A DNA stretch of 64,000 nucleotides. Source: Bacteroides sp. AN502(2024). GTDB taxonomy: Bacteria > Bacteroidota > Bacteroidia > Bacteroidales > Bacteroidaceae. A program made the position numbers and the translations under genes. Where the stretch lies: positions 1,488,001 to 1,552,000 of the forward strand of contig NZ_JBGFSP010000003.1 of the NCBI RefSeq assembly GCF_041227145.1. Direction: 5' to 3'. Shown in pieces: positions 14,788-45,283 of this stretch. Position 1 is the stretch's first letter. Every line of letters begins with the position of its first letter. The notes beneath the pieces are model-generated. The model had not been told where the DNA came from. It ran no database searches and was given only the letters and a program-made list of their open reading frames with translations.

Positions 14788-14807
14788 ATCATATTCTTAT
14801 TAGGAGA

Positions 14808-16862: not shown

Positions 16863-16870
16863 GTATTTAA

Positions 16871-19800
16871 TTAGATATTTACAGTCAATCCTAAAGTAAA
16901 TGTCTTGGCAAGCGGATACTTCTCTCCGTTAGTACTTCCCATTTCCGGATCCCATTCTTTAAATTTGGCAAACGTCAAGAGGTTTGTACCGATAAAAAAT
17001 ACGCGTATTTTGCTAAACCGCATCTTGCTCACGATTGATTTCGGTAAGGTATAACCAACTTCCAATGTTTTCAAGCGCAAATAAGAACCGTCTCTGAGCC
17101 AGAAAGTGGAAGCTCTATAGTTATTATCATTTCCTCCATAGCTAAGTCTCGGATACGAAGCGTTCGGATTCTCATTGGCCGGAATGCCCAATGTGACTGC
17201 AGTTTCCGCATCAACATAGCGATCTCGCACCAAATTCGTCAGAACATTTCCCCACTGACTACCACTAAAGGCATATACAGTAGGACCATCAATAAAAAAC
17301 GAAGACTTGCCTGCCCCTTGGAAATGTGCATTGAAATCGACACCTTTCCATTGTGCAGAGATACCAAAACCATAAATTAAATTCGGCTTAGTTGTCGCAC
17401 CAACAGCCACTCTGTCTCCGTCATTAACAACACCATCTCCATTGACATCTTTATATTTGATATCACCCGGTTGTACTTTTCCCCATACAGTCTGCTGAGG
17501 ACTATTGCGTATATCATCGTAATCCTTGAACAGTCCCACAGCAATTAGCCCCTTTGCCTGATTCACCCGGTACCCAGCCTCCTTTTGATAAGGGTAAACC
17601 GCATTCATTTCATCTTTCTCCAAAATCTCGTTTTTGCTGTAAGTAAAATTACCGCGAACTGTCAGATTGACCTTTCCTATCTTTTGCTTGTAAGCAAAGT
17701 TACCGTCAAAACCTTTCGACAGAACACTGCCGACATTGGCTTTCGGATTACTATTCACTCCCACAATACCCGGTAGATATTTACGTTCCATATAGATGCC
17801 ATCACGCTGCTCATGGAAATAGTCTACAGTAGCCGTAACTTTATCATTGAATAAGGATAGGTCCACACCCGCATCGTGCTTGGTTGCAATTTCCCAAGTG
17901 ACATTGTTGGAGGCCAACTGCGTATACATCATTCCCGTATATACATTGTCCGGAGAGCCATAATCACTCCAAGTCCAGCCACTCCCATCATCCTTGATAG
18001 TATACAAGTAAGGGAAACGTACGTCCATCTTATCATTACCAACCTTACCATAGGAGTAACGTAATTTGAACATATTCATCCATTTCAGATGTTTCTTAAC
18101 AAACTTCTCTTCCGCTATGTTCCAAGCCAAAGAAAAAGCGGGGAAAAAGCCGAAACGATGTCCGTCAGCAAAATTTTCTGAACCATTATAGCCAAAATTG
18201 AAGTCGGCAAAATAACGATAATTCCAGTTATAACTAGCACGCCCCGCCAATCCCATGTGACGCTTGGCAATACCATTTTTTACGTCTGTTCCAATATCGA
18301 CTGTAGTTCGGTAAGCATCCTGACTATATTTCAATGTCCCACCTATATGATGTGCATGAAATGCACGATTATATTGCAGATAGGCTTCTAAAAATTCACG
18401 GCGCTCACCGGTAGAGGAACTAGTCTGTTCCATCGGTTTCTCGGCACTTTGTTGCTTGAAGATCAGGTTTCCGGCATCATCGCGTTCTCTTTGGGCGCGC
18501 CAGGTTTCCGGCATTCTTATCCGGTTTATTTCACTCTGATTGTTCGTATCAAATCCAAAGCGACCTTCAAAACGCAAACCTTTGGTAATAAAGTCCAGCT
18601 TTTGCTCCAAAGATATATTTGTCTGAATTTTATTATTCCAGATTTCTTTATATCCAGTCTGTGTGGCAAGTACCCAAGGATTCTTACGATTATCTTCTAC
18701 CCCGTGTGCAGGAATATAACCATTAGAATACATGACAGGAATACTGACCGGATTCTGCCCCATTAATGAAGTCCATACATTAGAACCTTGTCCCGGTGCA
18801 TTACGCTTCTTTAATGAACCGGATACACCCACTTTTACAAGAGTAGTCTTTGTTACATCAATATCTGTATTCAAACGATAATTCCAACGCTGACTGCTAG
18901 GATTAGTATTATAATCCTCACGCATAGCATCATCCGTTTTGTACATTCCTTCTTCATTCACATAACTCAACGATACGAAATAACGTGCTGTACTACCACC
19001 GCCACTCATATTCAAATTGGCACGATAAGTCATGGCTCCGTCTTTCAACAACACATCCATCCAGTCTACATTCGGATATAAATCCGGATCAAGTCCCAAT
19101 CGCAGGAGTTCCATTTCATCATCTTGATAAATTCTCTCTTGATTACGAGTAATCTGTGCTTCATTCATCAACATGGCGTAACTATAGCCGTCCGCAAATT
19201 CCGGTGTAATAGTACGTGCATTATAAGAGGTCTCCACTTTAGCATTGATCTTGATCTTACCTTCTTTACCATGTTTAGTAGTAATCAACACTACACCATT
19301 AGCACCACGAGGACCATAAATAGCTGTTGTAGAAGCATCTTTCAACACAGTAAAAGATTCAATATCTTCAATATTGATTTCATCCAAATCGCGTTCGAAA
19401 CCATCAACGAGAACCAATGCAGAGCTGTTAGCACCAAAAGTAGATATACCACGGATCCAGAATTCTGAAGTATTCACACCTGGTTGTCCGGAAGTCTGCA
19501 TAGCAAGAACACCTGATACATTTCCAGCTAATGCATTAGAAAGATTTGCTGAAGGATTTGACTTTAGTACTTCTACATCTACATTCGTCACTGCACCTGT
19601 CACTGTCAATTTTCTCTGTGCTCCAGTTCCTGTAATTACAACCTCATCAATTTCCCTAGCCTCCGTTTCTTTCATCGATATATTTACCAAACTCTGGCGT
19701 TTCACCAACATCTCTTGCGTATCAAAACCAATATACGAAAATACCAAACGAGAAAATTCCTCAATTTTAATTTTGTAACGCCCGTTGATATCTGTTATCG

Positions 19801-19960
19801 CTCCCAAACCTGGTTTATCTTTCACTGTTACATTGACACCAACCAATGGTTCTTTATTCGTGTCCGTCACGACTCCTGTTACCTCAATCGTCTTCTCTTG
19901 AGCAAAAAGGGAAACAGAGACTAATAACAGGCAAATCGTAATAAATTCTTTTATTCTCAT
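16871..19960 (-). CDS. SusC-like TonB-dependent transporter (first PUL)
   Basis: This 1029-residue outer-membrane protein has a signal peptide (about 1-20) and a carboxypeptidase-regulatory-like N-terminal domain (about 24-100: GVVTDTNKEPLVGVNV). A plug domain follows (about 108-225) with IDEVVITGTG, IRGIST, LVDGFERDL and VLKDASTTAIYGPRGANGV. The remainder is a 22-strand barrel ending in LGLTVNI. It imports oligosaccharides bound by SusD, powered by TonB-ExbBD. It is third in the operon (glutaminase-like, TIG/NHL, SusC, SusD, lipoprotein), with gaps of 8-20 nt throughout. In the orientation seen here this operon is joined to the glutaminase-like promoter, so it is the one predicted to be switched on. 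Confidence 0.95.
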   Translation of the reverse strand: MRIKEFITICLLLVSVSLFAQEKTIEVTGVVTDTNKEPLVGVNVTVKDKPGLGAITDINGRYKIKIEEFSRLVFSYIGFDTQEMLVKRQSLVNISMKETEAREIDEVVITGTGAQRKLTVTGAVTNVDVEVLKSNPSANLSNALAGNVSGVLAMQTSGQPGVNTSEFWIRGISTFGANSSALVLVDGFERDLDEINIEDIESFTVLKDASTTAIYGPRGANGVVLITTKHGKEGKIKINAKVETSYNARTITPEFADGYSYAMLMNEAQITRNQERIYQDDEMELLRLGLDPDLYPNVDWMDVLLKDGAMTYRANLNMSGGGSTARYFVSLSYVNEEGMYKTDDAMREDYNTNPSSQRWNYRLNTDIDVTKTTLVKVGVSGSLKKRNAPGQGSNVWTSLMGQNPVSIPVMYSNGYIPAHGVEDNRKNPWVLATQTGYKEIWNNKIQTNISLEQKLDFITKGLRFEGRFGFDTNNQSEINRIRMPETWRAQRERDDAGNLIFKQQSAEKPMEQTSSSTGERREFLEAYLQYNRAFHAHHIGGTLKYSQDAYRTTVDIGTDVKNGIAKRHMGLAGRASYNWNYRYFADFNFGYNGSENFADGHRFGFFPAFSLAWNIAEEKFVKKHLKWMNMFKLRYSYGKVGNDKMDVRFPYLYTIKDDGSGWTWSDYGSPDNVYTGMMYTQLASNNVTWEIATKHDAGVDLSLFNDKVTATVDYFHEQRDGIYMERKYLPGIVGVNSNPKANVGSVLSKGFDGNFAYKQKIGKVNLTVRGNFTYSKNEILEKDEMNAVYPYQKEAGYRVNQAKGLIAVGLFKDYDDIRNSPQQTVWGKVQPGDIKYKDVNGDGVVNDGDRVAVGATTKPNLIYGFGISAQWKGVDFNAHFQGAGKSSFFIDGPTVYAFSGSQWGNVLTNLVRDRYVDAETAVTLGIPANENPNASYPRLSYGGNDNNYRASTFWLRDGSYLRLKTLEVGYTLPKSIVSKMRFSKIRVFFIGTNLLTFAKFKEWDPEMGSTNGEKYPLAKTFTLGLTVNI

Positions 19961-19972
19961 GTGTTCTTCTTT

Positions 19973-21472
19973 TTATTGATTTTCTTGGTGCTGATTATCA
20001 TTGGATTCTTCTCCGCCTAAATCATCAGGAGCCTGTTCTTTAGCAATCTTCCGAATCTTATAATTCCCCGAATCACCTACATAGAAAGTCTTTGTTTCCT
20101 CATCGTAAGCCAAAGCCACCGGTTGATTAAAACGTGCCCTCTCACGTACTTCTCCATTTTGCTTACCCCATTTATAGCTACTTGCGGAAGCAGAACCGCG
20201 CCCGGCAAACGTAGAAACTACCCCATCCGGAGTCAATATTCGAATACAATGATTTTCTTTATCTGCAAAATAAAAGTCATACCAATCATCTTTATTAGCT
20301 GCCTTATACTCTTCATTGAGCACAAAGACACCTTGACCAGGCTTATTGATACGTGCATTGATACCTACAAGATCCTTATAATCAGCCTGACCGGATTGTC
20401 CACATACAATATACGGAGTTACCAACTTTTTAGTTTCTTCATCATAATTGGAACGAAGTATATAATGCGATTCATGCATGATGATATAAACATATTTACC
20501 TGTTGGATGAGGAACCATGCTAAAGTCAACCGTTTGATTAGGTACACTAAATGCCAAGAATTCATTCAACCCTGATCCACCAGGAACCTCCGGATTGTTA
20601 TTATAGCCGTTTTTTTCAAAATTATATCTGTACACATTGCCTGTTGCACGATGATTGAAATAAAGTTCTCCCGTTTGTGGAAGCACCATAGACCCATTGC
20701 AAGCATTACCACGTGCCAAAGCTACCCAACTGGATTCTCTGAAATCTTGTCCGTCTGTACTATTCTCGCGCTTTAAAATAATATTGTTTCTATTCTTAGC
20801 GCCACCATTTTGGGGGGCAGCCAATATCATATCACCATCATTAGTCCATGTAATAGTAGTTGCACGATTAATATTATCCAGTTTCTTGGTATAGATCATT
20901 TTTTGTTCTAGATCCAACACTCTCAAAAGCCCATTATTCTGAGACAAATAAAGGATATTAGGATGTTGAGGATCGAAAGAGAACCAAAAAGGATAATCAA
21001 TCTTTCCGCAATTGTCAAACGGTCCAGTCTCTACAATATCGGCCTTACCCAATTCGTCCACGTCACCACACAAGTCCGTTACCACCATCTGCGGTTCATA
21101 CTGATATTTTTCAGGCAATACTACAGTTTGTTCACCGACCTTCACCTCTATAGTCCCTTCGAAACAACTTTCCGGCGTAGAACAATAAATGCTGGTACCT
21201 TTGGCGCTGATAACAATCGCATCCTTTCCACCGACCTTAACAGAAACAATGGAACAATCTGTCCCGAAGTTTCTTCCATAAATAATCATCTTCTTTTTTC
21301 CACCTCCCGATTTAGGTGTGAAATCCGTCACCTCTATCGGTTGGCTCGGATCATAAGGCACTGATGTCTCGTCTTTACTATCTTTGCAGCAGCTAAAACA
21401 AACTGCAAAGATAAATGCCAACATCATGTACTGTAGCCCTATGCTCCCACGTTTCATAGTTTTACATTTCAT
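19973..21472 (-). CDS. IPT/TIG and NHL-repeat lipoprotein (first PUL)
   Basis: This 499-residue protein has a lipoprotein-type signal (FAVCFSCCKD). One IPT/TIG domain (about 45-125) carries VTDFTPKSGGGKKKMIIYGRNFG, its usual start. An NHL/six-bladed propeller region follows (about 150-480), with repeats such as PVALAYDEETKTFYVGDSGNYKIRK and HCIRILTPDG-VVSTFAGRG. TIG-NHL lipoproteins are frequent in PULs next to SusC/D and are thought to be surface glycan-binding or scaffold proteins; no enzymatic residue is evident. It lies 17 nt after the glutaminase-like gene and is immediately outside the candidate inverted repeat. M1 or M6 (MKRGSIG) could be the start. Confidence 0.82.
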   Translation of the reverse strand: MKCKTMKRGSIGLQYMMLAFIFAVCFSCCKDSKDETSVPYDPSQPIEVTDFTPKSGGGKKKMIIYGRNFGTDCSIVSVKVGGKDAIVISAKGTSIYCSTPESCFEGTIEVKVGEQTVVLPEKYQYEPQMVVTDLCGDVDELGKADIVETGPFDNCGKIDYPFWFSFDPQHPNILYLSQNNGLLRVLDLEQKMIYTKKLDNINRATTITWTNDGDMILAAPQNGGAKNRNNIILKRENSTDGQDFRESSWVALARGNACNGSMVLPQTGELYFNHRATGNVYRYNFEKNGYNNNPEVPGGSGLNEFLAFSVPNQTVDFSMVPHPTGKYVYIIMHESHYILRSNYDEETKKLVTPYIVCGQSGQADYKDLVGINARINKPGQGVFVLNEEYKAANKDDWYDFYFADKENHCIRILTPDGVVSTFAGRGSASASSYKWGKQNGEVRERARFNQPVALAYDEETKTFYVGDSGNYKIRKIAKEQAPDDLGGEESNDNQHQENQ

Positions 21473-21489
21473 AATACTTTAGATTTAAA

Positions 21490-22103
21490 TTATTGATTAT
21501 TCTGAGCTTTATCCATCAGCACCTTCATCCAGTATCCTCCAATCACTGAACGTGCTCTGAAACCAACCCACTTACCACTGTCTGTATGATGCCAGTCACT
21601 GATAGGTACACGAGATACTGTTTCATTGATATATTTATAAACAGGATCTGAGAATTTCCGGAACGTCGCCTTATCCGGTGACATAGCCGCCGTCCACATG
21701 ATCCAGTCGGATTTGGTGTATTCTTTGCGAGAGTCCAAAGGAAGTCCGTAAGGGTTCTGTTTTGTCAAATAGTAGTTAATCTCTTTCCCGATTACATTGT
21801 TAGGGAATAAATTCAAATTCCATAACTTGTCCCAAACCATATTATACTTTTGACTCCAGGTGTCCTTTCGGTCAAAAGCCAAACGGTAATGGTTACCTTC
21901 ATTGGCCATTTCTTCCCATTTCACCGCCATTTTCTTAGCTATCGCTGCATATTTGTCAGCTACATCATTCAGGCCGAGCATACGAGCCATCTCACTGTAT
22001 CCGGCTACGCCCATGATGGCTTTTACTGAAAGATTGGCATTATGAGCCCAATGTCCGGCGAAGTCATCCGTGCAGAGTTGGTTCTCCGGGTCCTGTCCAT
22101 ACT
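21490..22103 (-). repeat. Inverted repeat, left copy (3' end of glutaminase-like gene)
   Basis: On the minus strand this 614-bp segment equals 26792-27405 on the plus strand. Identity is perfect for the inner 499 bp (21605-22103 against 26792-27290). The outer 115 bp holds five differences, all at third codon positions (left position 21604 is one). Identity ends abruptly at 22103/22104 inside the gene and at the stop codon. Confidence 0.95.
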
Positions 22104-24012
22104 CTACTAAATAATTGGTCCATGTTGTCAAAATGTCCCAATATTTCTTAGCATAATCTGCATTACCTTCAATTTTGGAAATGGCTGCTGTTAGAATCAC
22201 CATGTTACCACTCTCTTCAATCGGCATATCACCACCATAAACTTGTCCGTTCGCTATTGGATAAGTTCCAAGATCATGTGCTGCGAAAGGTTTATTCCAA
22301 CGACCACTAGCGCTATATTCGAAGATGCTAGTCATCATTGCCTTCTCTAAATCAGGATTATAGATCAAAAATAGAGGAGCGGACGGATAAGTCAGATCGA
22401 CGGTATTGATACAGCCATTACTATTGTTTTCTTTAGAGAACCACATCAGGTTGCCCTCTTTATCCGTGAACAGCTTATGTGCAGAAATGACCTGACGATA
22501 GGCAGCAGAACATATCTCTGCATATTTCTTACCACCAGCTTTTTCTGCATCGCTATAAATAAGTTCATCAAGTGCACGGCAACGCTCCATAATGGAGTGA
22601 TAGTTATCTCTCAACTTTTCGAAAGCATCAAAAATAGTTACTTTACCATCATGTTTCCAATAGCCCATGCGTTTTTCATACATGTATTCGATAGAATAAA
22701 TGTCATCATAACCAATCATCATGAAACCATCCTTACCATCTTTTGCAACAGTTCCCAAATTATGAACATAAGCCATTGCGGGAGTATTTTCCTCTTTACG
22801 AGTAATCCATTTGGTTTTACTTGAAGCTAATGTTCCATTTTTAACAAAAGATTCTTTCATTCCGCTATAGTCACCCAAGCTTACAGATTTTCCGGTTCCA
22901 TTTACACTACCAAGATAAACATATCCCCAATCTGCGCAGATCAAATCACCTTTGCGATCACAAATTGGTTGATTTATGGTACCCGCTTCTACGTAACTAA
23001 TACCGTTTTTCGATAATGTACGTGCAACAGTAGGCTGAGTAGTTTCATTTACCGCCAGCACCGGGGTGGTTTCCATATAGAATTGAACATCATGCTCTTT
23101 TTTATCGAGAGGACGCACACGATAGGATATATAATTAATAGGAGTTGACAGCAAATCCAAATCATCAATCAGTTGAGGTGCTGTAAATACAAGATCTAAT
23201 TCGACTGGTCCACAAGCGAATGTATAATAAGTAGAAGTTGCTAACACATCTACGGACTTTTGTATGGCTTCATTATCGAATGTAACCGCATCTTTCTTTT
23301 CCCGGTACAGTCCGAAATCCACATAAGAACCTCCGGTCGTGTTATGACAATGCACTGCTATCACATTTTTTCCCTTACGAAGTTTTTTCTTGGCTTCATC
23401 TGAAAGCTTCAGGTTTACATTATCCCTCCATACGAGACCTGTACTAACCAATTTTTCTCCATTCAAATACAGTTCGAATACATCATCATGAGAATAAATA
23501 AGGTGAATATTCTCCGATATATCCAAATCATTAAGTTCAAATGTACGTCGGATATAAATATCCGTATTATCTCCTTTCCATTCTGTGCGAATACGTGGCA
23601 TATCGCGACTACCGAAAGCTGCTTTACCTTTTTTCCAATTGCTATCATCAAACTGGAATTCTTGCCATCCATTTGCAGGTTGACTGTTAGTATATGCAGC
23701 CTCCCAACGTTCTATATTTGTCATGGGAGCAATAGGCAGTAAAGTCACTTGATCTTTACCTAGGAAGCGATACACTTTACCGTCTACACGCAAGGCCCCA
23801 ACTAAGGGCTTCTTAGCTGCAGTCCAATGTTCGGTACTTCCCTCCATCAATTTATCATAAGGAGACCAAATAGAGAAGTAAGGATCTGAAACGATGATAG
23901 GTACTGACGGAGTACGCAACGCTACTTCCTTTACCGGTTTAAAAAAGTGGTCGGTTTGAGCATTAGCGAATAAACCGACTGAAAAGGCCATTACTGTTAG
24001 TAGTTTCTTCAT
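21490..24012 (-). CDS. Glutaminase A-like (DUF4964/5127/4965/1793) secreted enzyme, spans candidate inversion boundary
   Basis: This 840-residue protein has a signal peptide (about 1-19, ending in FANAQ). The domain order is DUF4964-like start (about 25-90), an inserted galactose-binding-like sandwich (about 95-235), DUF5127-like region (to about 470), DUF4965 (about 480-650) and DUF1793 (about 655-835), an alpha/alpha-barrel type C-terminal half. The family is named after Aspergillus glutaminase A, but its members in PULs may be glycan-active; no activity is claimed here. It is the first gene of the first PUL. Its last 204 codons (from about residue 637) recur inverted at 26792-27405, so the 5' three quarters and promoter sit on a segment that could flip to the second PUL. 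The predicted leader is unusually long (about 285 nt). Confidence 0.85.
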   Translation of the reverse strand: MKKLLTVMAFSVGLFANAQTDHFFKPVKEVALRTPSVPIIVSDPYFSIWSPYDKLMEGSTEHWTAAKKPLVGALRVDGKVYRFLGKDQVTLLPIAPMTNIERWEAAYTNSQPANGWQEFQFDDSNWKKGKAAFGSRDMPRIRTEWKGDNTDIYIRRTFELNDLDISENIHLIYSHDDVFELYLNGEKLVSTGLVWRDNVNLKLSDEAKKKLRKGKNVIAVHCHNTTGGSYVDFGLYREKKDAVTFDNEAIQKSVDVLATSTYYTFACGPVELDLVFTAPQLIDDLDLLSTPINYISYRVRPLDKKEHDVQFYMETTPVLAVNETTQPTVARTLSKNGISYVEAGTINQPICDRKGDLICADWGYVYLGSVNGTGKSVSLGDYSGMKESFVKNGTLASSKTKWITRKEENTPAMAYVHNLGTVAKDGKDGFMMIGYDDIYSIEYMYEKRMGYWKHDGKVTIFDAFEKLRDNYHSIMERCRALDELIYSDAEKAGGKKYAEICSAAYRQVISAHKLFTDKEGNLMWFSKENNSNGCINTVDLTYPSAPLFLIYNPDLEKAMMTSIFEYSASGRWNKPFAAHDLGTYPIANGQVYGGDMPIEESGNMVILTAAISKIEGNADYAKKYWDILTTWTNYLVEYGQDPENQLCTDDFAGHWAHNANLSVKAIMGVAGYSEMARMLGLNDVADKYAAIAKKMAVKWEEMANEGNHYRLAFDRKDTWSQKYNMVWDKLWNLNLFPNNVIGKEINYYLTKQNPYGLPLDSRKEYTKSDWIMWTAAMSPDKATFRKFSDPVYKYINETVSRVPISDWHHTDSGKWVGFRARSVIGGYWMKVLMDKAQNNQ

Positions 24013-24301
24013 AACTATTTTCTAATTAATCTACAATTTAAAGGTTACCCATCTACAATCTTGTTTACCAATAAAGAAAAACTACCCCTATGTTCTTTTT
24101 CTCTTTTTACTTGGTTACTATTACGTTTTTAGAATACAATCTTACCTTTTATTATCGCTATACCTATTAGTATATTAAAATCAGTACTGTCGAATATTAT
24201 ATAAATGTCGGGGAAAGTTCATATAGAATTGTGCGCTTCAAACAGCCCTGTGTGGCATACAAATCTTATCTGTTTCCCATGGTATTTCATATGTGACGTT
24301 A

Positions 24302-24355
24302 CAAAATAATTGAATTAATACTAAATATCAGGAAAATAAGTGTTCAAGAAAGGAC
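24302..24355 (-). promoter_or_regulatory. Predicted HTCS-type activator site and promoter of glutaminase-like gene / PUL
   Basis: On the minus strand GTCCTTT (24349-24355) is followed by CTTGAACAC, and a -7-like box TTATTTTG lies at 24302-24309 after the same 39-nt interval as in the sulfatase promoters. It lies on the candidate invertible segment, so it would serve whichever PUL is joined. The start codon is about 285 nt downstream of the predicted transcription start, far more than at the other five promoters. Confidence 0.6.
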
Positions 24356-24431
24356 AAAATCTATCCTTTTTTCATATTCCGGATGCTTTTTCTTATAAAA
24401 AAAGTCTGTTATAGCACGCTCTGAATAGCTT

Positions 24432-24485
24432 TTGTCCTATTGGTCAATATTTATCCGTCTTCTTTAGTATAGCATAATACGCTTG
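24432..24485 (+). promoter_or_regulatory. Possible HTCS-type site and promoter of the recombinase gene
   Basis: GTCCT precedes ATTGGTCAATATTTATCC (24439-24456), which agrees at 13 of 18 positions with ATTGATTAGCATTTTTCC of the four-sulfatase promoter. The interval from ATTG to the box TACGCTTG (24478-24485, one mismatch to TAnnTTTG) is again 39 nt. It diverges from the glutaminase-like promoter within the same 529-bp region (24013-24541), in which no gene was found. Confidence 0.4.
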
Positions 24486-24541
24486 ACGAATTTTAGCTTT
24501 TAATAATTTGATATTGCTCATTTCAGATTGCTTTTATAACT

Positions 24542-25825
24542 TTGCAATACGAATGCAATACAGATTTTACTATCGCAAAATATACTCCATATATTAAACC
24601 CAGGTACGTCACTCGGGAAGGGACTACCGTCCTTTATGTTCGATATAACTACAATCGAACTAAGCGTACGCTTATCTCTACCGGCTATAGCATTAAACCG
24701 AAACATTGGGATGCTAAAAAGAGATGGATTAAGCGTGCATGTCCAAACTATGATGAGATCGATGCTTGTCTGATCAAAATTACATCTAAGCTTGGAGAAA
24801 TTCTTACATACGCTAAAATAAACGGAATAAATCCAACTGTTGAATTTGTTTTACTTGAACTAAAAAAGAACAGGGAATATGAGTTACGGCCTAATCGAGT
24901 AGATATATTTGACACATTAGAAAGATATATTATAGAAAAAGCTCCAGTTGTTTCCGCAGACCAAATAAAAGACTACCGAACGCTACGTAAACATCTGATT
25001 GCTTTCAGAGAATATTCATCACAACCAATTACTTTTCATCATTTGAATCTCATATTCTACAATGAATTTATGGACTATTTGTTCTATAAAGTAATCAAGC
25101 CTGATGGAAGCATTGGTTTACTTACTAATTCTGCAGGAAAAATAGTACGCTTATTAAAAGGTTTTGTTAATTACCAAATAGATAAAGGGGTTATTCCTCC
25201 AATTGATCTGAAATATTTTAAGGTTGTGGAAGAAGAAACTGATGCTATTTATCTGAGTGAGAAAGAACTGTCAACAATATATGAGTTAGACTTGTCCGAC
25301 GACAAGCAACTGGAAGAGATCAGAGATGTTTTTATTACCGGATGCTATACTGGGTTACGTTATAGCGACCTTTCTACATTAGGGCCAGAACATATTGACT
25401 TAGATAATGGAAATATAAATCTTAAACAGAGGAAAGTACATAAAGCAGTCGTAATCCCTATGATTGATTACGTGCCGGAAATACTCAAAAAATATAACTA
25501 TGATTTGCCTAAAATACCTAGATACATATTTAATGAGAGAGTCAAAGAGCTGGGACAAAGAGCAAAATTAAAACAAAAGATTGAAGTTGTCCGCAAGAAA
25601 GGTAAGGAACGAGAAAAAAAAGTATATGAAAAGTGGGAGATGATCTCTTCTCATACTTGTCGACGATCGTTTTGCACAAATATGTATTTATCCGGTTTTC
25701 CTGCAGGAGAACTTATGCGTATATCCGGGCATAAAAGTCCATCTGCATTCATGCGATATATAAAGGTCGATAATCTACAGGCTGCAAAAAGACTAAAAGA
25801 GCTTCGAGCTAAACTAGCCAAGTAA
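24542..25825 (+). CDS. Tyrosine recombinase, candidate invertase of the PUL switch
   Basis: This 427-residue Bacteroidota tyrosine recombinase has an arm-like N-terminus (YVTREGTTVLYVRY, STGYSIKPKHWD), a core-binding domain (about 110-215) and a catalytic domain (about 225-425). All five catalytic residues are present: R273 (TGLRYSD), H371 and R374 (HTCRR), H397 (SGHKS) and Y406 (MRYIKV). No in-frame ATG exists between the upstream stop at 24509-24511 and the family-like N-terminus. The TTG at 24542 is the best start, so translation may be weak. It lies between the inverted repeats and is divergent from the glutaminase-like gene, as expected for a recombinase that inverts its own segment. Unlike the integrases at 1-1864 it is not associated with a visible element end. 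The target site is not proven. Confidence 0.85.
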   Translation: MQYECNTDFTIAKYTPYIKPRYVTREGTTVLYVRYNYNRTKRTLISTGYSIKPKHWDAKKRWIKRACPNYDEIDACLIKITSKLGEILTYAKINGINPTVEFVLLELKKNREYELRPNRVDIFDTLERYIIEKAPVVSADQIKDYRTLRKHLIAFREYSSQPITFHHLNLIFYNEFMDYLFYKVIKPDGSIGLLTNSAGKIVRLLKGFVNYQIDKGVIPPIDLKYFKVVEEETDAIYLSEKELSTIYELDLSDDKQLEEIRDVFITGCYTGLRYSDLSTLGPEHIDLDNGNINLKQRKVHKAVVIPMIDYVPEILKKYNYDLPKIPRYIFNERVKELGQRAKLKQKIEVVRKKGKEREKKVYEKWEMISSHTCRRSFCTNMYLSGFPAGELMRISGHKSPSAFMRYIKVDNLQAAKRLKELRAKLAK

Positions 25826-25978
25826 AGATTGAAATATTTTATCTTGATTATTTTAAATAATGTTCCATTGTTCATGAACAAATTACATGTATATGAAGTG
25901 GTTCAACCTATTTACTGAAGCAAGTCGAATCATGTGCTTGAGTTGCTCAAGCCGCCTACATCATTTCATTGAGTGTAG

Positions 25979-26022
25979 TACTTGTTACAGTCAAATCTCC
26001 TACTTGTTACAGTCAAATTTCC
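25979..26022 (+). repeat. Two tandem 22-bp repeats
   Basis: TACTTGTTACAGTCAAAT followed by CTCC in the first copy (25979-26000) and TTCC in the second (26001-26022): 21 of 22 positions agree. Function unknown; too short for CRISPR and without spacers. Confidence 0.8.
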
Positions 26023-26168
26023 TGCTAACTATTAGAATAGAAAAAATGATCTTCAGCCTTCAGTTCTTCAAAAAAGTCCCTTTTCATCGGCATTTCTTCC
26101 TGAAAGCACTCCTGAAAGCGAACATGTATAACCATAACTTCTTTCTCTATATTTACTTTCAATAGAGC

Positions 26169-26250
26169 CTCTGTTTCATCCAAATAGAGGCTCTGTTTTG
26201 TCCGAATACAAGCTCTGTTTCATCCGAATACAGGCTCTGTTTTGTTCAGC
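26169..26250 (+). repeat. Tandem 22-bp repeat, three copies plus a partial
   Basis: Units start with CTCTGTTT at 26169, 26191, 26213 and 26235. The following TCATCC or TGTCC and AATACA blocks vary slightly between copies. The period is exactly 22 bp, the same as the neighbouring repeat at 25979-26022. Role unknown; possible protein-binding array or replication-slippage product. Confidence 0.8.
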
Positions 26251-26791
26251 CTACGTGGTGAATCTATCTATCCGATGTGATACACATTATAGAACGAGTA
26301 TAGTAAGTATATATACCCACTGCGTTGAATAGATCGTTTTACCGGCAAAACAAAAAAGCTGAAAGCGCTGAAAGCACTACCCCTTGCCTACAGTACCTTC
26401 CTGCAAGGGTCAATATTTTCCGGTTTCAGCCGCTATCTCCTTCCTGCAAGGCGTTTGCGGATAAAACTGAAACCGCTGAAGGCAGATTATAGTATGAAAA
26501 TTCAATGAGAGGGTTTGGGCAGGTTTAAATCAGATAGTTGGATTTTTAATTCATTTCCGTACAGAAATTACATAGATAAATGAAAAAGAGAGAAAGAGAA
26601 AATATCCATTTTTTCAGATTAGCCCATTTCTCATCTTAGACTACCCTACATTTATTCCTTAATTTTTTATTTATTAAAAGCTTGCTTATGAGTTAGAATT
26701 TTGTATTCCATTTTAATAGTCAGAACAATACAAAGACAACACAATACAGAAATAACAACCTGGATTTCAGTTTATTATCTAACACTATTTT

Positions 26792-27405
26792 AGTATGGAC
26801 AGGACCCGGAGAACCAACTCTGCACGGATGACTTCGCCGGACATTGGGCTCATAATGCCAATCTTTCAGTAAAAGCCATCATGGGCGTAGCCGGATACAG
26901 TGAGATGGCTCGTATGCTCGGCCTGAATGATGTAGCTGACAAATATGCAGCGATAGCTAAGAAAATGGCGGTGAAATGGGAAGAAATGGCCAATGAAGGT
27001 AACCATTACCGTTTGGCTTTTGACCGAAAGGACACCTGGAGTCAAAAGTATAATATGGTTTGGGACAAGTTATGGAATTTGAATTTATTCCCTAACAATG
27101 TAATCGGGAAAGAGATTAACTACTATTTGACAAAACAGAACCCTTACGGACTTCCTTTGGACTCTCGCAAAGAATACACCAAATCCGACTGGATCATGTG
27201 GACGGCGGCTATGTCACCGGATAAGGCGACGTTCCGGAAATTCTCAGATCCTGTCTATAAATATATCAATGAAACAGTATCTCGTGTACCCATCAGTGAC
27301 TGGCATCATACAGACAGTGGTAAATGGGTTGGTTTCAGAGCACGTTCGGTGATCGGAGGATACTGGATGAAGGTGCTGATGGATAAAGCTCAAAATAATC
27401 AATAA
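26792..27405 (+). pseudogene. Inverted repeat, right copy: 5'-truncated glutaminase-like gene
   Basis: This encodes exactly the last 204 codons of the 840-residue enzyme at 21490-24012, including the DUF1793 region and the stop codon, in frame but without promoter, signal peptide or start of its own. A frame from the internal ATG at 26881 gives 174 residues identical to the left copy. It lies 33 nt upstream of susC of the second PUL, just as the left copy lies 17 nt upstream of the TIG/NHL gene. It is therefore better read as a waiting 3' exon-like cassette than as a dead gene: it becomes complete if 22104-26791 inverts. All five differences to the left copy (27291, 27324, 27348, 27354, 27393) are synonymous, which argues that it is periodically expressed and selected. 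Confidence 0.85.
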
Positions 27406-27438: not shown

Positions 27439-30246
27439 ATGAAGTTCTTAAGAGAAATTTTGTTAATTGGGCTATTACCTGGTTTTCTTATAAGCCAAGC
27501 ACAAAACGTCCAAAACAAAGAAGATGTACCTTTAGATTTAGGTTATCGTGTACTCCCTATGGGAGATTATAACGGTTCAGCCTACACCATCTCGGGTAAA
27601 CAGTTACGCAATCTACCTGTCACAAATCTTTCGGCAGTATTAGCCGGACTGGTACCTGGTTATTTTGCCCGACAAGTGCAAGGTGGCGGATTAGTGAATG
27701 AACAGAATTCATTTTGGATAAGAGGGCAAAGAAGTAATTCATCCAATGCGCTAGTACTAGTTGATGGACAAGAACGGGATTTTACTGTTTTGTCATCACA
27801 CGAAGTAGAATCAATTACCGTATTGAAAGATGCTGCAGCAACAGCTTTATATGGAATGCGTGCAGGCAGTGGAGCTATTCTGGTTACAACTCGTAAAGGA
27901 ATAAAAGGGAAACCACAGGTTGAATTAACAGCTCAAATAATAGCTCAACAGCCACTTAAAAAGTTAGAGTCATTAAATGCAGCCGATTACGCAAGACAAT
28001 ATAATATAGCCCGCCACAATGACAGTATGGATCCACTGTATTCCAACTATGACATTATGAATTATGCAAAGAATGCCCCTAATTCCATATTGTATCCCAA
28101 TGTAGATTGGGTTGATAAATACTTGAAGGATACCCGATGGAGCCAACGCTATAATCTTAACATCCAAGGAGGGACAGAAAAAAGTACATATTTCGTGAAT
28201 GCAATGTATACTCGTAACAATGGCTACTTCAATACGGATGATTCACATGATTATAGTACCAATCACTCTGCCGAACGGTTTAATATTCGTTCCAATATAG
28301 ATTTTGCCGTAACCCGTACCACTCAGCTGGATGTAAACTTGTATGGCTGGTATCAAAGCCAGAATGGACCGGGTAGCGGAGCTGAAAATATTTACAGAAA
28401 CTTAGTTACATTACCACAAGGGATCTTTCCAGAGTGGTACAATGATCAAGGGTATACAGATCAATACGGCAATATTATCAATGCAGAAGATGGAAAAATT
28501 GTAGCAGGAAATGCATTCCGTGAAAATGCATGGGCAATGCTAAATCGATCCGGTTACTTTCAGGACAAACAATTGTATGGTTCTTTCCGTACGAAACTCT
28601 CACAGGATCTTTCCTTCATAACAGAGGGATTAAAAGCTTCTATTGCTTTATCTATGGATTCACGTACAGTTTCTTCTATCAGACGTACAATAACTTTCGC
28701 ATATTACGAAAAGGACGCCACGAATGAGAACGTTCTCCGCCGGACCCGCGAGGATGACTCAATGATAAACAAAGTAGATAATACCAATTCTTTCCGCCGA
28801 ACCGGTATCGTGGCTCAGTTAGATTATAACCGTACCTTTGGAAAACATAGAATTTCGGCTTTAGCTTTCTATGAACAATATGAAAGCAATGATGAAATGG
28901 TATTGCCAACCCGATTCCAAAGCGCAAATGGTTGGTTCGGCTATAATTATGATAAAAGATATGGCATCGATGTTATCGGAGCTTATCAGGGATCTCACAA
29001 ATTTGGGCCGGGACACAAATTCGGTTTCTTCCCTACAATATCTGCCGGATGGACTGTTTCTAACGAATCTTTCTGGAAAGATGCAAAAAAAATAGTGCCC
29101 TACCTAAAACTAAAAGCATCTTATGGACAAGTCGGCAACTCATCCGGCGTAGATGCCTTTTATTACAGGGGACGCATGTGGCCGCAAAACGAAGTCTATA
29201 TCACAGGGGTAAATATGGGAACAAAGCTTGGAGGATACATTCAGGATATACTTCCAAATCCCGGATTGACTTGGGAGAAAGCTAGAATTCTGAATATCGG
29301 AATAGATACCCAACTATTTTCAGACCGATTATCTGTTACAGCAGAATTTTTTAAAGACAACCGTCATGATATGTACGTCGTAAATAACAAAATCAGTTCT
29401 CTTGTCGGCAATGTAAAGGAATTTAAGCAGAATATAGGCAAGATTAATAGCCATGGAGTAGACTTATCTGCCACGTGGAATTCAAATATTGCAGACTGGG
29501 GCTATTTCATAGGTAGTACATTCTCTTATTCTACGAATAAAGTGATTGCAAATGGTGAAGTAGACCAGCCATATGATTGGTTGAAGAATCAGGGACGTCC
29601 TCTAGGAGAAAATCGAGGATACATTGCAAAAGGCTTTTTCAAATCTTGGGAAGAAATAGCAGCCTCTCCTGTACAAACATTCTCCGATGTCCAACCAGGT
29701 GATGTACGTTATGAAGATATAAACAAAGACGGACAGATTGATGTAAACGATATGATACCTATCGGTTACGGAGACATTCCTAGAATCATGTATGGTATTA
29801 ACTTAGGGGTCGGTTACAAAGGATTTTCGATCACAGCATTGTTTCAGGGAGCAGCAAAAGTCTCTCATCAATATTCGGACATCGTAATGAATCCTTTTAC
29901 AGACAACGGAACCATATTTGAGCATCAACTTGATTACTGGACACCCGAACACCAGAATGCAGCATTCCCACGTTTGACAACACTGGACAATGCTAATCTT
30001 AATAATAGGCAGGTAAGTACATTAAATGTAAAAGATGCTGATTTCTTAAGATTGAAAACATTGGAAGTTTCTTATGACTTTCCTGTAAAAATGATACAGA
30101 AAATCCATCTTAAGGGATTGAGACTTTTCCTTAGCGGAACGAATCTGATTACCTGGACAAAATATAAATGGGTTGATCCTGAAGCGCCTTCACTGGCGGC
30201 TCCTTTGACGAGAAACATGAGTATAGGTTGTTCCTTAAAATTCTGA
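27439..30246 (+). CDS. SusC-like TonB-dependent transporter, short N-terminus (second PUL, first pair)
   Basis: This 935-residue protein has a signal peptide (about 1-21). The plug domain follows almost directly (about 45-160): TISGKQLRNLPVTNL, WIRGQRS, LVDGQERDF, VLKDAAATALYG. The barrel ends in SIGCSLKF. The carboxypeptidase-like domain that precedes the plug in the other two SusC proteins of the window is missing, which accounts for the length difference of about 95 residues. It is the first complete gene after the inverted repeat (33 nt gap) and overlaps no other gene; susD follows after 4 nt. In the orientation seen it has no recognisable promoter nearby, so it is predicted to be off or weakly expressed until the segment flips. 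Confidence 0.92.
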   Translation: MKFLREILLIGLLPGFLISQAQNVQNKEDVPLDLGYRVLPMGDYNGSAYTISGKQLRNLPVTNLSAVLAGLVPGYFARQVQGGGLVNEQNSFWIRGQRSNSSNALVLVDGQERDFTVLSSHEVESITVLKDAAATALYGMRAGSGAILVTTRKGIKGKPQVELTAQIIAQQPLKKLESLNAADYARQYNIARHNDSMDPLYSNYDIMNYAKNAPNSILYPNVDWVDKYLKDTRWSQRYNLNIQGGTEKSTYFVNAMYTRNNGYFNTDDSHDYSTNHSAERFNIRSNIDFAVTRTTQLDVNLYGWYQSQNGPGSGAENIYRNLVTLPQGIFPEWYNDQGYTDQYGNIINAEDGKIVAGNAFRENAWAMLNRSGYFQDKQLYGSFRTKLSQDLSFITEGLKASIALSMDSRTVSSIRRTITFAYYEKDATNENVLRRTREDDSMINKVDNTNSFRRTGIVAQLDYNRTFGKHRISALAFYEQYESNDEMVLPTRFQSANGWFGYNYDKRYGIDVIGAYQGSHKFGPGHKFGFFPTISAGWTVSNESFWKDAKKIVPYLKLKASYGQVGNSSGVDAFYYRGRMWPQNEVYITGVNMGTKLGGYIQDILPNPGLTWEKARILNIGIDTQLFSDRLSVTAEFFKDNRHDMYVVNNKISSLVGNVKEFKQNIGKINSHGVDLSATWNSNIADWGYFIGSTFSYSTNKVIANGEVDQPYDWLKNQGRPLGENRGYIAKGFFKSWEEIAASPVQTFSDVQPGDVRYEDINKDGQIDVNDMIPIGYGDIPRIMYGINLGVGYKGFSITALFQGAAKVSHQYSDIVMNPFTDNGTIFEHQLDYWTPEHQNAAFPRLTTLDNANLNNRQVSTLNVKDADFLRLKTLEVSYDFPVKMIQKIHLKGLRLFLSGTNLITWTKYKWVDPEAPSLAAPLTRNMSIGCSLKF

Positions 30247-30250
30247 TAGA

Positions 30251-32005
30251 ATGAAAAAATCGATAATTTATTTAGCAATAAGCACAACACTTACATTTTC
30301 CAGTTGTGACTATTTGGATGACATGCCCTATGACTGGGCACAACCTGATGATATTTTTACGAATGAGCAGAATTATCTGAAACCTATCAATCAGGTTTAT
30401 GCATATATTCCCGAAGGCTTCAACCATGTAGGAAATGCCTTTTTAGATGCAGCTACCAATGATGGAATAAGCACAATCATAGATTCGGATATCCATAAAT
30501 TGTCTCGTGGATATATCACTTCTTCAAATCCGATTGAAGAATGCTGGAATAATTCATATAAGGGAATTCGACAAGCAATTTTTGCCCGCAAATATTTGCG
30601 TGAAGCCGACTTGGTGTTACAAAACAAGACAGAAGAAGATATTCAAGCATTCAAGGATACTTATTGTGCGGAAACCGAATGTTTACAGGCCTTATTTGAG
30701 TTTAACCTGTTAAGACACTACGGAGGTTTTCCTATTGTCGATCGTATTTATGAAGTCGATGATCCTGAACTGCAGACAAAAGCAAGAGACTCTTTCAAAG
30801 ACTGTGTCAATCACATCGTACAGTTGTGTGAGAGTGCTGCCGCTGTATTGAAAGTTAATCCGGAAGGCGGGAATGGTTCTTATGGCCGCATGACTAAAGG
30901 GATGGCACTCGCTATTAAAGCCAAGACGTTACTCTACGCCGCAAGCCCACTCTATAACAGAACAGATAACAATGACCCTGTACTAGGGTATACTGATGGA
31001 TCGGATGTAGCAGAACGCTGGCAACTTGCCGCCAAAGCTTGTGCAGACGTAATCAACCTGAATGTGGATGGCACTATAGCCCCGAATGGAAATAAGAAAT
31101 ATAGTCTGATAACTCTTACTGCTGCTAAAACGTATGATAAGATCTTTATCCATGCTAACCCTAATTCGGAATATATCTTGTTCTACACAGCTACCAAGAA
31201 CAATACTTTAGAAAACAGGCATTATCCCCCTACAATTTCAAAAGACCAAGGAGGAGGTACAGTACCTTCACAGCAATTGATCGATGCATTTACCATGAAA
31301 GACGGAAGTGATTATACCCATTCTTCTGATGGTAGGAACATGTATAAAAACAGAGACCCGCGTTTGGCAGCAATTATTGGATATGACGGTTCTGTTTATG
31401 GAAAGAATACCATTTATACGCGAATTAGTGATAATACAACCATAGACGGACTCAACCAAGTGAAAAACCGTTCGACCAATACAGGATATTATTTAGCTAA
31501 GTTTCTGGACAAAACCCTGAAGTTCGGACAGGCTAATGTAGGCACTGTTTTCCACTTATTCCCGATGATTCGTTTATCTGACATCCTACTTTCTTACGCA
31601 GAAGCCATGCATCATGCTTATGACATGAATGCGGATCCTGAAGGCTACGGTTTGACAGCAGTAGAAGCCGTACAGAAAATACGTTCCAGAGCCGGATTCG
31701 GAACAGATGATAAATTTCTTAATGGGGTGACAGATGACAACTTCTTGGAAAAGGTGAAACAAGAACGTCGTATCGAACTCTGTTTTGAAGAACATCGTTA
31801 CTTTGATTTGCGACGTTGGATGGATGGCAATCAACTAAGAGAGCCTATTGTCGGAATGAAAATAGAAGAAAATGCTTCCGGATTTCATTATACTCGCTTT
31901 ACGGTAGATGAAGCACGCAATTTTAAGGATTACATGTATTATCATCCCATTCCTCTGAAAGTAATAAAGGAAAACCCTTCCATTCAACAAAATCCGGGTT
32001 GGTAA
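30251..32005 (+). CDS. SusD-like lipoprotein (second PUL, first pair)
   Basis: This 584-residue RagB/SusD-family protein has a lipoprotein signal ending in FSSCDY (Cys about 19). The early helix CWNNSYKGIRQA (about 97-108) and the C-terminal signature QERRIELCFEEHRYFDLRRW are diagnostic. Length is usual. It follows susC at 27439-30246 by 4 nt and precedes the second susC by 32 nt. It should cap the 935-residue transporter and bind its glycan at the surface. It is only moderately similar to the SusD of the first PUL, so the two operons probably handle different glycans or different fragments of one. Confidence 0.93.
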   Translation: MKKSIIYLAISTTLTFSSCDYLDDMPYDWAQPDDIFTNEQNYLKPINQVYAYIPEGFNHVGNAFLDAATNDGISTIIDSDIHKLSRGYITSSNPIEECWNNSYKGIRQAIFARKYLREADLVLQNKTEEDIQAFKDTYCAETECLQALFEFNLLRHYGGFPIVDRIYEVDDPELQTKARDSFKDCVNHIVQLCESAAAVLKVNPEGGNGSYGRMTKGMALAIKAKTLLYAASPLYNRTDNNDPVLGYTDGSDVAERWQLAAKACADVINLNVDGTIAPNGNKKYSLITLTAAKTYDKIFIHANPNSEYILFYTATKNNTLENRHYPPTISKDQGGGTVPSQQLIDAFTMKDGSDYTHSSDGRNMYKNRDPRLAAIIGYDGSVYGKNTIYTRISDNTTIDGLNQVKNRSTNTGYYLAKFLDKTLKFGQANVGTVFHLFPMIRLSDILLSYAEAMHHAYDMNADPEGYGLTAVEAVQKIRSRAGFGTDDKFLNGVTDDNFLEKVKQERRIELCFEEHRYFDLRRWMDGNQLREPIVGMKIEENASGFHYTRFTVDEARNFKDYMYYHPIPLKVIKENPSIQQNPGW

Positions 32006-32037
32006 TGGGGAGCAAAACTATTTAATAGATAGAAAAC

Positions 32038-35154: not shown

Positions 35155-35173
35155 TGTTTGAAATGAATAATTT

Positions 35174-36883: not shown

Positions 36884-36917
36884 TCTAAATAGAATGTTTA
36901 CTTAAAAAAATAAAGTC

Positions 36918-45262: not shown

Positions 45263-45283
45263 TCTACGTTTTTTTTTATTCAA

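Follow-up and report, generated by a model that had tools for sequence, protein, structure and literature searches.

A putative operon shufflon in Bacteroides predicted to exchange SusC/SusD import operons behind a constant enzyme gene

The window, a stretch of 64,000 nucleotides from Bacteroides sp. AN502(2024), contains a locus that is very probably a site-specific DNA-inversion switch, an operon shufflon, run by a domesticated integrase. In the proposed mechanism, the recombinase pairs the core GTnTGGACAGGACCC in the coding sequence of a GtaA-like enzyme (an attB-like site lacking an arm motif) with the same core where a silent 3' copy of the gene begins (attR-like, with an arm motif 66-68 bp upstream). 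Strand exchange by the window recombinase would produce a 4.7-kb inversion that moves the promoter and the 5' part of the enzyme gene onto the other 3' copy, so that the enzyme would be restored with the same amino acids and the co-transcribed SusC/SusD import operon behind it would change. Presumably, only the operon joined to the enzyme is transcribed, and more silent copies in a genome would offer more operon choices. The integrase would be related to those of mobilizable elements, and the silent heads have the tRNA-side end layout of one such element, which sits in tRNA-Asp.

If this model is correct, import of glycans across the outer membrane is varied while the enzyme and its regulated promoter are held constant, which may matter for diet, competition and phage receptors. 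It would also offer a traceable example of how a mobile-element integrase became a domesticated switch; in some species the ancestral attachment site would still be recognisable. Such switches may be concealed where a genome is published in a single orientation or where broken contigs carry plasmid or phage labels; the core, the arm motif and the recombinase family are defined well enough for searches of read archives and for bench tests. A literature search of titles and abstract openings, the coverage of which excluded subscription papers and bioRxiv, returned no description of such a locus.

Organisation of the locus

The two inverted arms (Table 1) are 614 nt each, 99% identical and 4688 nt apart. 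All six mismatches between them lie within 21502-21640, and the longest identical run is 21641-22103 (463 bp). Each of the six is synonymous, and exchange of the arms in silico yields an unchanged 840-aa enzyme. Genome-wide, the 614-bp sequence matched both arms and one paralogue at 68%; as judged from sequence, the inverted repeat is far beyond chance. These results bear out a preliminary description of the locus, which reported the duplication on either side of the 5' part, promoter and recombinase and anticipated that inversion would leave the enzyme unchanged; its figure of 499 identical bp has to be corrected, as that stretch holds one mismatch. The gene content is also as claimed there, with TIG/NHL, SusC, SusD and lipoprotein genes on the left and a double SusC/SusD set on the right, except that the closing gene of the right operon, taken for a lipoprotein, encodes a protein with no Pfam match.

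Table 1. Coordinates of the features of the locus in the window
Feature	Position	Strand	Remarks
Left cassette	13768..21472	-	joined to the full-length enzyme in the assembly
Left cassette, DUF4973/BT_3987-like lipoprotein	13768-14787	-	
Left cassette, SusD	14808-16862	-	
Left cassette, SusC	16871-19960	-	
Left cassette, TIG/NHL	19973-21472	-	
Full-length GtaA-like enzyme	21490..24012	-	840 aa; DUF4964, DUF5127, GtaA_6_Hairpin
Left arm	21490..22103	-	constant 3' part of the enzyme gene
Crossover core in the full gene	22088..22102	-	GTATGGACAGGACCC; codons E-Y-G-Q-D-P; attB-like
Predicted invertible segment	22103..26792	.	enzyme 5' part, enzyme promoter region, recombinase, spacer
Predicted enzyme promoter region	24302..24379	-	within the invertible segment; positions read by eye
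Tyrosine recombinase	24542..25825	+	arm-binding, SAM-like and catalytic domains
Repeat motif at the recombinase leader	24544..24562	+	GCAATACGAATGCAATACA
Arm-type motif	26725..26743	+	ACAATACAAAGACAACACA; 68 bp ahead of the silent-copy core
Right arm	26792..27405	+	silent 3' copy of the enzyme gene, frame open up to the stop
Crossover core in the silent copy	26793..26807	+	GTATGGACAGGACCC; attR-like
Right cassette	27439..37859	+	predicted silent as oriented in the assembly
Right cassette, first SusC	27439-30246	+	
Right cassette, first SusD	30251-32005	+	
Right cassette, second SusC	32038-35154	+	
Right cassette, second SusD	35174-36883	+	
Right cassette, 313-aa protein	36918-37859	+	no Pfam match
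HTCS	41246..45283	-	hybrid two-component regulator

The predicted enzyme promoter region combines a block that is conserved (24330-24379) with a near-consensus -7 element, TTATTTTG. The region is also present in unshuffled, HTCS-adjacent relatives, and in two genomes (G012 and G026) relatives of the HTCS immediately precede an unshuffled GtaA locus; the HTCS of the window is likely to regulate the enzyme promoter. As a weak indication on whether the silent cassette of the window has a promoter of its own, exact TAnnTTTG, a pattern that also misses the near-consensus element of the enzyme, did not occur on either strand of the window at 25800-26800. A PDB sequence search with the enzyme found no relative.

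Distribution, crossover sites and alternative junctions

In a genus set of 158 genomes, ten carry the recombinase at E<=1e-120, and the module is present in eight of these (G000, G001, G021, G030, G044, G053, G103 and G149). Of the other two, G130 holds a mobilizable element and G156 a PUL inversion locus of another kind (L095), in which the recombinase lies between two TIG/SusCD operons with no GtaA match. The module is broken across contig ends in G053, G103 and G001, and the enzyme gene of G149 aligns as two pieces near its start. Not counted among the eight are G154 (3' copies only, no recombinase at E<=1e-120), G143, with one contig, and L077, a Prevotella MAG in which only the core segment is present. 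Genomes have one to three silent 3' copies, B. finegoldii has at least four cassettes, and wherever contigs continue the 3' copies lead SusC/SusD operons; in B. reticulotermitis, one contig-end copy is frameshifted. The preliminary description of one promoter toggled between two PULs is supported as to the switch and corrected as to its two states, the module being conserved as a family whose members hold one to three silent cassettes each.

With the HTCS and 10910 taken as anchors, the core segment points away from the HTCS in the window and toward it in G021 and G044, which is the inverted arrangement that had been proposed for comparison among related strains. G044 and B. faecis MAJ27 have two cassettes in common, with ON and OFF swapped. 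As in a site-specific DNA-inversion shufflon, a recombinase with intact motifs adjoins the sites, the site is short, conserved and in inverted orientation, and alternative arrangements occur both between species and within B. finegoldii, these arrangements coming from other strains and the window assembly having one orientation. The parts, their conserved boundaries and opposite orientations, the alternative junctions and the constraint described below can be read directly from the sequence.

All copies compared start at one common base, at the core inside the coding sequence. The arm motif was found 66-68 bp upstream of the core in 14 of 17 silent copies (four of the 17 being alleles of one arm) vs. 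none of nine full genes; two of the remaining silent copies lack it and one has a weak match. Cores with <110 bp upstream (three G154 contig starts) were left out of this count, as was G103, which has no complete core on its contigs. The motif stands outside the homology, at fixed spacing from the core. Arm-type motifs follow a GCAACACAAATGCAACACA-type pattern, and the core stretch GTATGGACAGGACC is a candidate strand-cleavage region. An exact 16-base match to the core pattern in G077 was attributed to chance, lying outside tRNA with no GtaA or recombinase match near.

Comparison of synonymous diversity in five shufflers and 12 non-shufflers (without G053, G149, G154, L077 and L078/G103, whose copies are incomplete or broken, and without G108) shows that codons 636-641 are the gene-wide minimum in shufflers (rank 1 of 424 windows), and that diversity is average in non-shufflers at codon windows 638-646, the scorable neighbours; windows starting at codons 632-637 are unscorable in non-shufflers because the amino acids vary. 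The crossover is likely to be confined to a short core that marks the 5' edge of the repeat rather than to span the entire 3' end of the gene, which agrees with its earlier placement inside the gene and narrows its extent. Between copies of one genome, dN/dS is 0-0.16 (without G053, G103 and G154), so that the silent 3' copies appear to evolve under purifying selection. Opposite orientations, alternative junctions, the synonymous constraint and this selection all support the inversion switch first suggested from the window.

Among B. finegoldii records with 97.5-99.7% identity to G021, three different cassettes follow the arm and core on the recombinase side (in G021, MT835951.1 and TSDC17.2-1.1), and the cassette alignments stop at most 3 bp from the core. 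The TSDC17.2-1.1 assembly contains two contigs with an overlap of exactly 127 nt that reaches 15 nt into the core, and the contig that carries the 5' part of the enzyme gene stops at the same base. Such ends point to a k=127 assembly graph with two 3' ends reachable from each of the 5' parts, and hence suggest coexisting states; the pattern could in principle also come from two identical arm copies. Contig C77 of G154, an isolate or metagenome bin, begins precisely at the core and has no more than its first 39 bases in common with the other two G154 contigs fetched, which suggests two predecessors. NZ_LT707012.1 of B. bouchesdurhonensis, a 4516-bp contig that coincides exactly with the core segment, was dropped as proof of two states because the main scaffold has the same sequence with N at its border and the repeats by themselves could have broken the assembly.

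RecA-dependent homologous recombination between the long 3' repeats, with the recombinase a bystander or relic, could also swap operons, and repeats of ~600 bp are sufficient in length. Homologous exchange inside the repeats does happen alongside the proposed site-specific route: MT835951.1 has a mosaic 3' copy with a clean join ~230 bp beyond the core, and the copies of the window, of G044 and of one pair in G030 are nearly identical for ~450 bp from the core and then diverge, apparently a further trace of the same process. Moreover, the B. faecalis recombinase is split by a transposase gene, yet the arms are 100% identical over 674 bp. As the general explanation, however, it is unlikely, given the single start base, the synonymous constraint that peaks at the core, an arm motif at fixed spacing beyond the homology, and a conserved recombinase with intact catalytic motifs whose group is tied to these loci; in addition, the copies of G021 (6-12% different) and B. 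faecis differ along their full length with no gradient.

That the inversions are evolutionary rearrangements between species or strains, the locus being static within any population, is in keeping with evidence drawn from assemblies, not reads, and with the one orientation of the window assembly. The three junctions found in a single species, including one in a record with 99.7% identity to G021, and the contig ends in TSDC17.2-1.1 and G154 make this rather improbable. The window strain itself is predicted to switch at present. The window alone, in which the right copy is only part of a gene, could not discriminate a switch from a pseudogene fragment left by a recent duplication. Such a fragment is scarcely credible, as eight genomes keep the module with an identical start point, dN/dS is low and orthologous cassettes are ON in one species and OFF in another; chance, simple duplication and a recent one-off event, which would have undone the original proposal, are thereby out for the module.

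The recombinase and its mobilizable-element relatives

The catalytic-region motifs of the recombinase, which we take to contain the R-K-HxxR-H-Y residues, are intact, in line with the first reading of the gene. Its annotated start at 24542 is questionable. Most relatives have their start codon aligned with ATC at 24572, and the true start is probably at ~24572, with a non-AUG codon. The leader motif GCAATACGAATGCAATACA immediately follows a promoter-like element, TAACTTTG, and is retained in most related recombinase genes. A PDB search with the recombinase found two distant Xer-type relatives only, and an exact-pattern scan of IMG/VR gave no match.

The relatives of the recombinase are mobilizable-element integrases, and one such element has inserted at the 3' end of tRNA-Asp. 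In this element (G130), the only one measured at both ends, the arm motif lies 67 bp from the core at the tRNA end. Elements in Dysgonomonas, Parabacteroides, Bacteroides sp. 214 and others encode 69-90% identical recombinases and have a similar core, and the leader carries the same arm motif in most. Seven of these loci have relaxase-type genes beside the recombinase (Pfam on one); in contrast, no relaxase or primase domain was found among the 17 window ORFs searched (10910-45283), nor a second element-type core (>=13/17 bases) near the window recombinase, which adjoins the enzyme gene rather than a tRNA-Asp gene. In a midpoint-rooted tree, the nine PUL-linked recombinases (eight from shufflons, plus L095) form one supported group (100/99), adjoined by L081, L082 and L106; L081 and L106 have an element-type leader and a core-like upstream site, and the L082 sequence begins at the gene. 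The tree was built without interrupted G149/L105, short L100, L107, L108, L109 and the duplicate L079, and L106 was entered as a 206-residue piece. On this sequence evidence, the window recombinase probably descends from an integrase family of mobilizable elements.

The element core matches the crossover core at 15/17 bases in some species and 12/17 in the window; the window and all full-gene cores compared match it at 11-12/17, which is not significant alone. We consider it fairly likely that a tRNA-Asp integrase was captured at a chance tRNA-like stretch in the enzyme gene and became a multi-state operon selector, in which the cassettes act as permanent attR (arm, core, gene tail) and the working gene as permanent attB, so that recombination always rebuilds the enzyme and swaps the operon. 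The idea that the tRNA-Asp genes of the genome lack the element core was rejected: all three read GCGGTGCGTACGGGACT and match it at 14/17 (the central bases not matching), better than the window crossover cores, which makes capture slightly less likely. Inverted repeats around the recombinase at ten other loci had no common site; direct repeats around one element did yield a shared site.

Comparison with known inversion systems

One of the closest known systems is the SusC/SusD shufflon of B. fragilis, driven by the tyrosine recombinase Tsr0667, which serves several regions far apart. Shufflon-type multiple inversions by a recombinase at SusC/SusD clusters are described in PMC4747536 and PMC11852207, the latter of which also names the R64 plasmid shufflon (Rci) and mentions the Campylobacter fetus surface-layer (sap) switch. 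The window locus is similar in this respect, and its operon layout would imply a like alternation in expression of SusC/SusD sets, but its crossover lies inside an upstream enzyme gene, the product is constant and whole operons would be exchanged; its recombinase belongs to an integrase family of mobilizable elements. At Bacteroides invertible promoters (Mpi, Tsr19), according to PMC4747536 and PMC12632263, inversion moves a promoter and turns the locus on. The mobile unit of the window, in contrast, is a promoter with three quarters of a structural gene and the recombinase.

The R64 shufflon combines multiple inversion sites with a single expressed copy and a set of silent cassettes, an organisation that the GtaA family resembles. 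It keeps the N-terminus of its protein and varies the C-terminus. The GtaA cassettes, however, each supply the same or nearly the same C-terminus, and it is the downstream operon that varies: the swap leaves the protein identical in the window, and enzyme copies differ by few amino acids in other genomes. On its sequence, the locus would be a DNA-inversion shufflon of a new form, with a constant enzyme and an exchanged operon. In C. fetus sap, the segment with the promoter inverts between genes that have a conserved stretch of ~600 bp in common, which is the 5' end of the variable genes, whereas the stretch shared in the window forms the 3' end of an upstream gene that stays constant.

Inverted repeat and orientation of the locus

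The 3' end of the enzyme gene (840 aa, with DUF4964, DUF5127 and GtaA six-hairpin domains) is duplicated in inverted orientation, as the preliminary description had proposed, in two arms of 614 nt each that are spaced 4688 nt apart (see table). The arms differ at 6 positions, all towards the stop-codon end. The identical run, earlier put at 499 bp, contains one mismatch, and the longest such run is 463 bp. The contents described for the interval between the arms were recovered, namely the first 1909 bp of the enzyme gene, its promoter region and a tyrosine recombinase, and swapping the arms in silico yielded the same protein, in agreement with the claim that inversion leaves the enzyme unchanged. 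Elsewhere in the window genome, the arm sequence matches one paralogue (68%) and nothing more. The promoter region includes a conserved block common to unshuffled loci next to a hybrid two-component regulator (HTCS) gene. Because this region lies inside the invertible segment, inversion is predicted to switch the regulated promoter, and with it the enzyme gene's 5' part, between the two operons. An exact-pattern search, which is a weak test, found no TAnnTTTG element between the window recombinase and the silent copy, i.e., the extra 3' copy at the head of a SusC/SusD-type operon (cassette).

Comparison with related strains had been suggested as a check for the inverted arrangement. With the HTCS gene and, on the opposite flank, the 10910-type gene as anchors, orientation differs: the full gene points away from the HTCS gene in the window and towards it in genomes G021 and G044. 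In G044, cassette A lies behind the full gene and cassette B behind a silent copy; Bacteroides faecis, where the two sides of the locus are on separate contigs, has the reverse, and protein identity between the two genomes is 91-96% for cassette A and 90-96% for cassette B. These two genomes are the clearest pair for exchanged cassettes. The SusD gene of cassette B in G044 is split by another ORF.

Recombinase-driven inversion of SusC/SusD sets in B. fragilis, to which the locus had been likened, is an established phenomenon, with Tsr0667 as the inverting enzyme (PMC4747536, PMC11852207). Our literature search found no account of a switch that holds an enzyme constant while swapping the downstream operon.

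Table: Coordinates of features at the locus and at related loci
Feature	Sequence	Position	Remark
Arm	window	21490-22103	
Arm	window	26792-27405	
Tandem repeat, 22 bp, AATAGAGGCTCTGTTTTGTCC-like	window	26161-26245	reported as three overlapping copies of 41 nt; in the spacer that separates the recombinase from the silent copy
Probable recombinase start codon	window	24572	
HTCS gene	window	41246-45283	minus strand
Sulfatase pair	G021	4576716-4579791; 4628736-4631811	two copies, one on each side of the locus
ATPase gene	G021	4603006-4604430	
ATPase genes	G044	4714866-4716023; 4736835-4738184	
ATPase gene	G001, contig C27	57709-58974	
TIG gene of a silent cassette	G021	4620811-4622309	two overlapping ORFs
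Interrupted shufflon recombinase	B. faecalis, locus L113	2032-3009	interrupted by a transposase gene

Alternative junctions in B. finegoldii

The locus also occurs in two mislabelled public records, NZ_OY725928.1, entered as a 'plasmid' from B. finegoldii TSDC17.2-1.1 and carrying fts and mur genes, and MT835951.1, deposited as a 'phage' scaffold from human faeces. Across the core segment, the predicted invertible DNA between the crossover sites (cores), their identity to G021 is 97.5% and 99.7%, respectively, and we therefore take G021 to be B. finegoldii. What follows the recombinase-side arm (about 90% identical among the three) and its core differs: cassette 3 in G021, cassette 2 in MT835951.1 and the HTCS-adjacent CDCD cassette in TSDC17.2-1.1. 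The cassette alignments stop no more than 3 bp from the core.

Another contig of TSDC17.2-1.1, NZ_OY725953.1, terminates in the same arm and shares exactly 127 identical nt with NZ_OY725928.1; this stretch reaches 15 nt into the core, up to the point from which the two cassettes differ, and the contig carrying the 5' part of the enzyme gene stops at the identical base. The other ends of the two contigs overlap by 126 nt. These overlaps fit an assembly with k = 127, under which the arm and the enzyme 5' part would each continue into two distinct 3' ends. A culture holding both orientations would give this pattern, a reading based on contig ends rather than read counts. Contig C77 of G154, an isolate or a metagenome bin, begins exactly at the core and has just 39 bases in common with the other two contigs fetched, which points the same way. 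All three public contigs are chromosomal Bacteroides sequences that were submitted as circular plasmids or as a phage, and they end at the core or close to it.

Two silent copies of G021 are in direct orientation relative to the full gene, so that reaching them by inversion would require an intermediate step, as in other shufflons. The MT835951.1 copy is a mosaic, of full-gene type to about position 230 and of cassette-2 type beyond, which indicates that homologous exchange within the repeat occurs as well; identity gradients along the copies in the window, G044 and one G030 pair are consistent with such exchange.

Predicted crossover site and silent copies

All alignable copies start at GTnTGG(A/G)CAGGACCC, upstream of which the DNA is unrelated among most copies. 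Across five full-length shuffling genes, no part of the gene has lower synonymous codon diversity than codons 636-641 (GTA GAG TAT GGA CAG GAC; 0.07, the lowest of 424 windows, vs. 0.43 on average); at the same place, 12 non-shuffling genes have average diversity (0.45-0.55 vs. 0.48, with windows scorable from codon 638 on). The direct-repeat motif ACAACACAAAGACAATACA lies 66-68 bp upstream of the core in 14 of 17 silent copies (at most 4 mismatches), four of the 14 being alleles of one B. finegoldii arm; among the remaining three, one has a weak match and two have none, and the motif is absent upstream of the core in all 9 full genes. Copies within a genome differ chiefly at synonymous sites, with dN/dS of 0-0.16 in 16 of 17 pairs and identity in the 17th, and silent copies are therefore selected as coding sequence. 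A frameshifted copy at a B. reticulotermitis contig end is outside this set.

Distribution of the module and probable origin of the recombinase

With the arm as query, and no more than three places scored per genome, 46 of 149 genus genomes had matches; in several of them, two or three copies lie clustered. The recombinase query (E ≤ 1e-120) matched in 10 of 158 genomes, 8 of which carry the same module of GtaA gene, recombinase and 1-3 additional 3' copies, including B. faecis MAJ27, B. bouchesdurhonensis, B. faecichinchillae, B. reticulotermitis and B. faecalis. Some copies sit at contig ends; wherever the contig continues, an outer-membrane operon follows, mostly TIG protein, SusC, SusD and lipoprotein. 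In G012 and G026, an HTCS regulator precedes an ordinary GtaA-TIG-SusC-SusD-lipoprotein locus, with no recombinase match within the stretch fetched around it, and this locus looks like the unshuffled form of the module. Sulfatases near the window locus suggest sulfated glycans as cassette substrates.

In three genomes, four ATPase genes adjoin cassettes or sit between them; three were typed by Pfam (AAA_14 + DUF4143, or ATPase_2 + DUF234), and the fourth was assigned because it resembles the G021 gene. The split TIG gene of G021 suggests a frameshift acquired while the cassette was silent. The B. faecalis recombinase is interrupted, while its locus has arms with 100% identity along 674 bp; a second transposase gene adjoins GtaA there.

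Recombinase relatives with 69-90% identity occur in Dysgonomonas, Parabacteroides, Tannerella, Paludibacter and Bacteroides sp. 214. One such locus (L085) encodes relaxase, DnaG-type primase and VapE-like domains, and homologous gene clusters are present at several others. The element of Bacteroides sp. 214 is bounded by a 19-bp repeat, TGGCGGTATGGACGGGACT, whose right copy forms the 3' end of tRNA-Asp(gtc), and at the element's tRNA-side end the motif-to-core distance is 67 bp, the layout of the silent copies. At 6 of 8 further loci scanned, the element core lies within tRNA-Asp genes; the remaining two are not tRNA-Asp. Agreement with the element core reaches 15/17 positions, non-coding bases included, in silent copies of B. 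bouchesdurhonensis and B. faecalis and 14/17 in those of B. reticulotermitis (a shuffled 64-kb window gives 0.1 matches at ≥14/17); the window, G021 and G044 cores match at just 11-12/17, which by itself is not significant. The three tRNA-Asp genes of the window genome match at 14/17 and differ in central bases that the crossover cores keep. In a midpoint-rooted tree, the PUL-linked recombinases form one supported group. An element of the tRNA-Asp type likely inserted at a tRNA-like stretch of GtaA and probably then lost its mobility genes, its integrase likely being kept as the inverting enzyme.

Most mobilizable-element relatives start at ATG (ATGGCAAAT), but all 9 shufflon recombinases read (window, L067, L068, L080, L083, L103, L105, L078 and L077) start at ATA or ATC; such a start may be weak and hold the amount of recombinase low. 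On contig C11 of a metagenome-assembled genome (locus L095, G156), a 73% identical recombinase is flanked by two divergent TIG/SusC/SusD operons. An inverted repeat of 166 bp (96%) covers the 5' ends of one TIG and one GH43 gene there, and GtaA has no match at the locus, which may be a second kind of PUL inversion locus within the same recombinase group.
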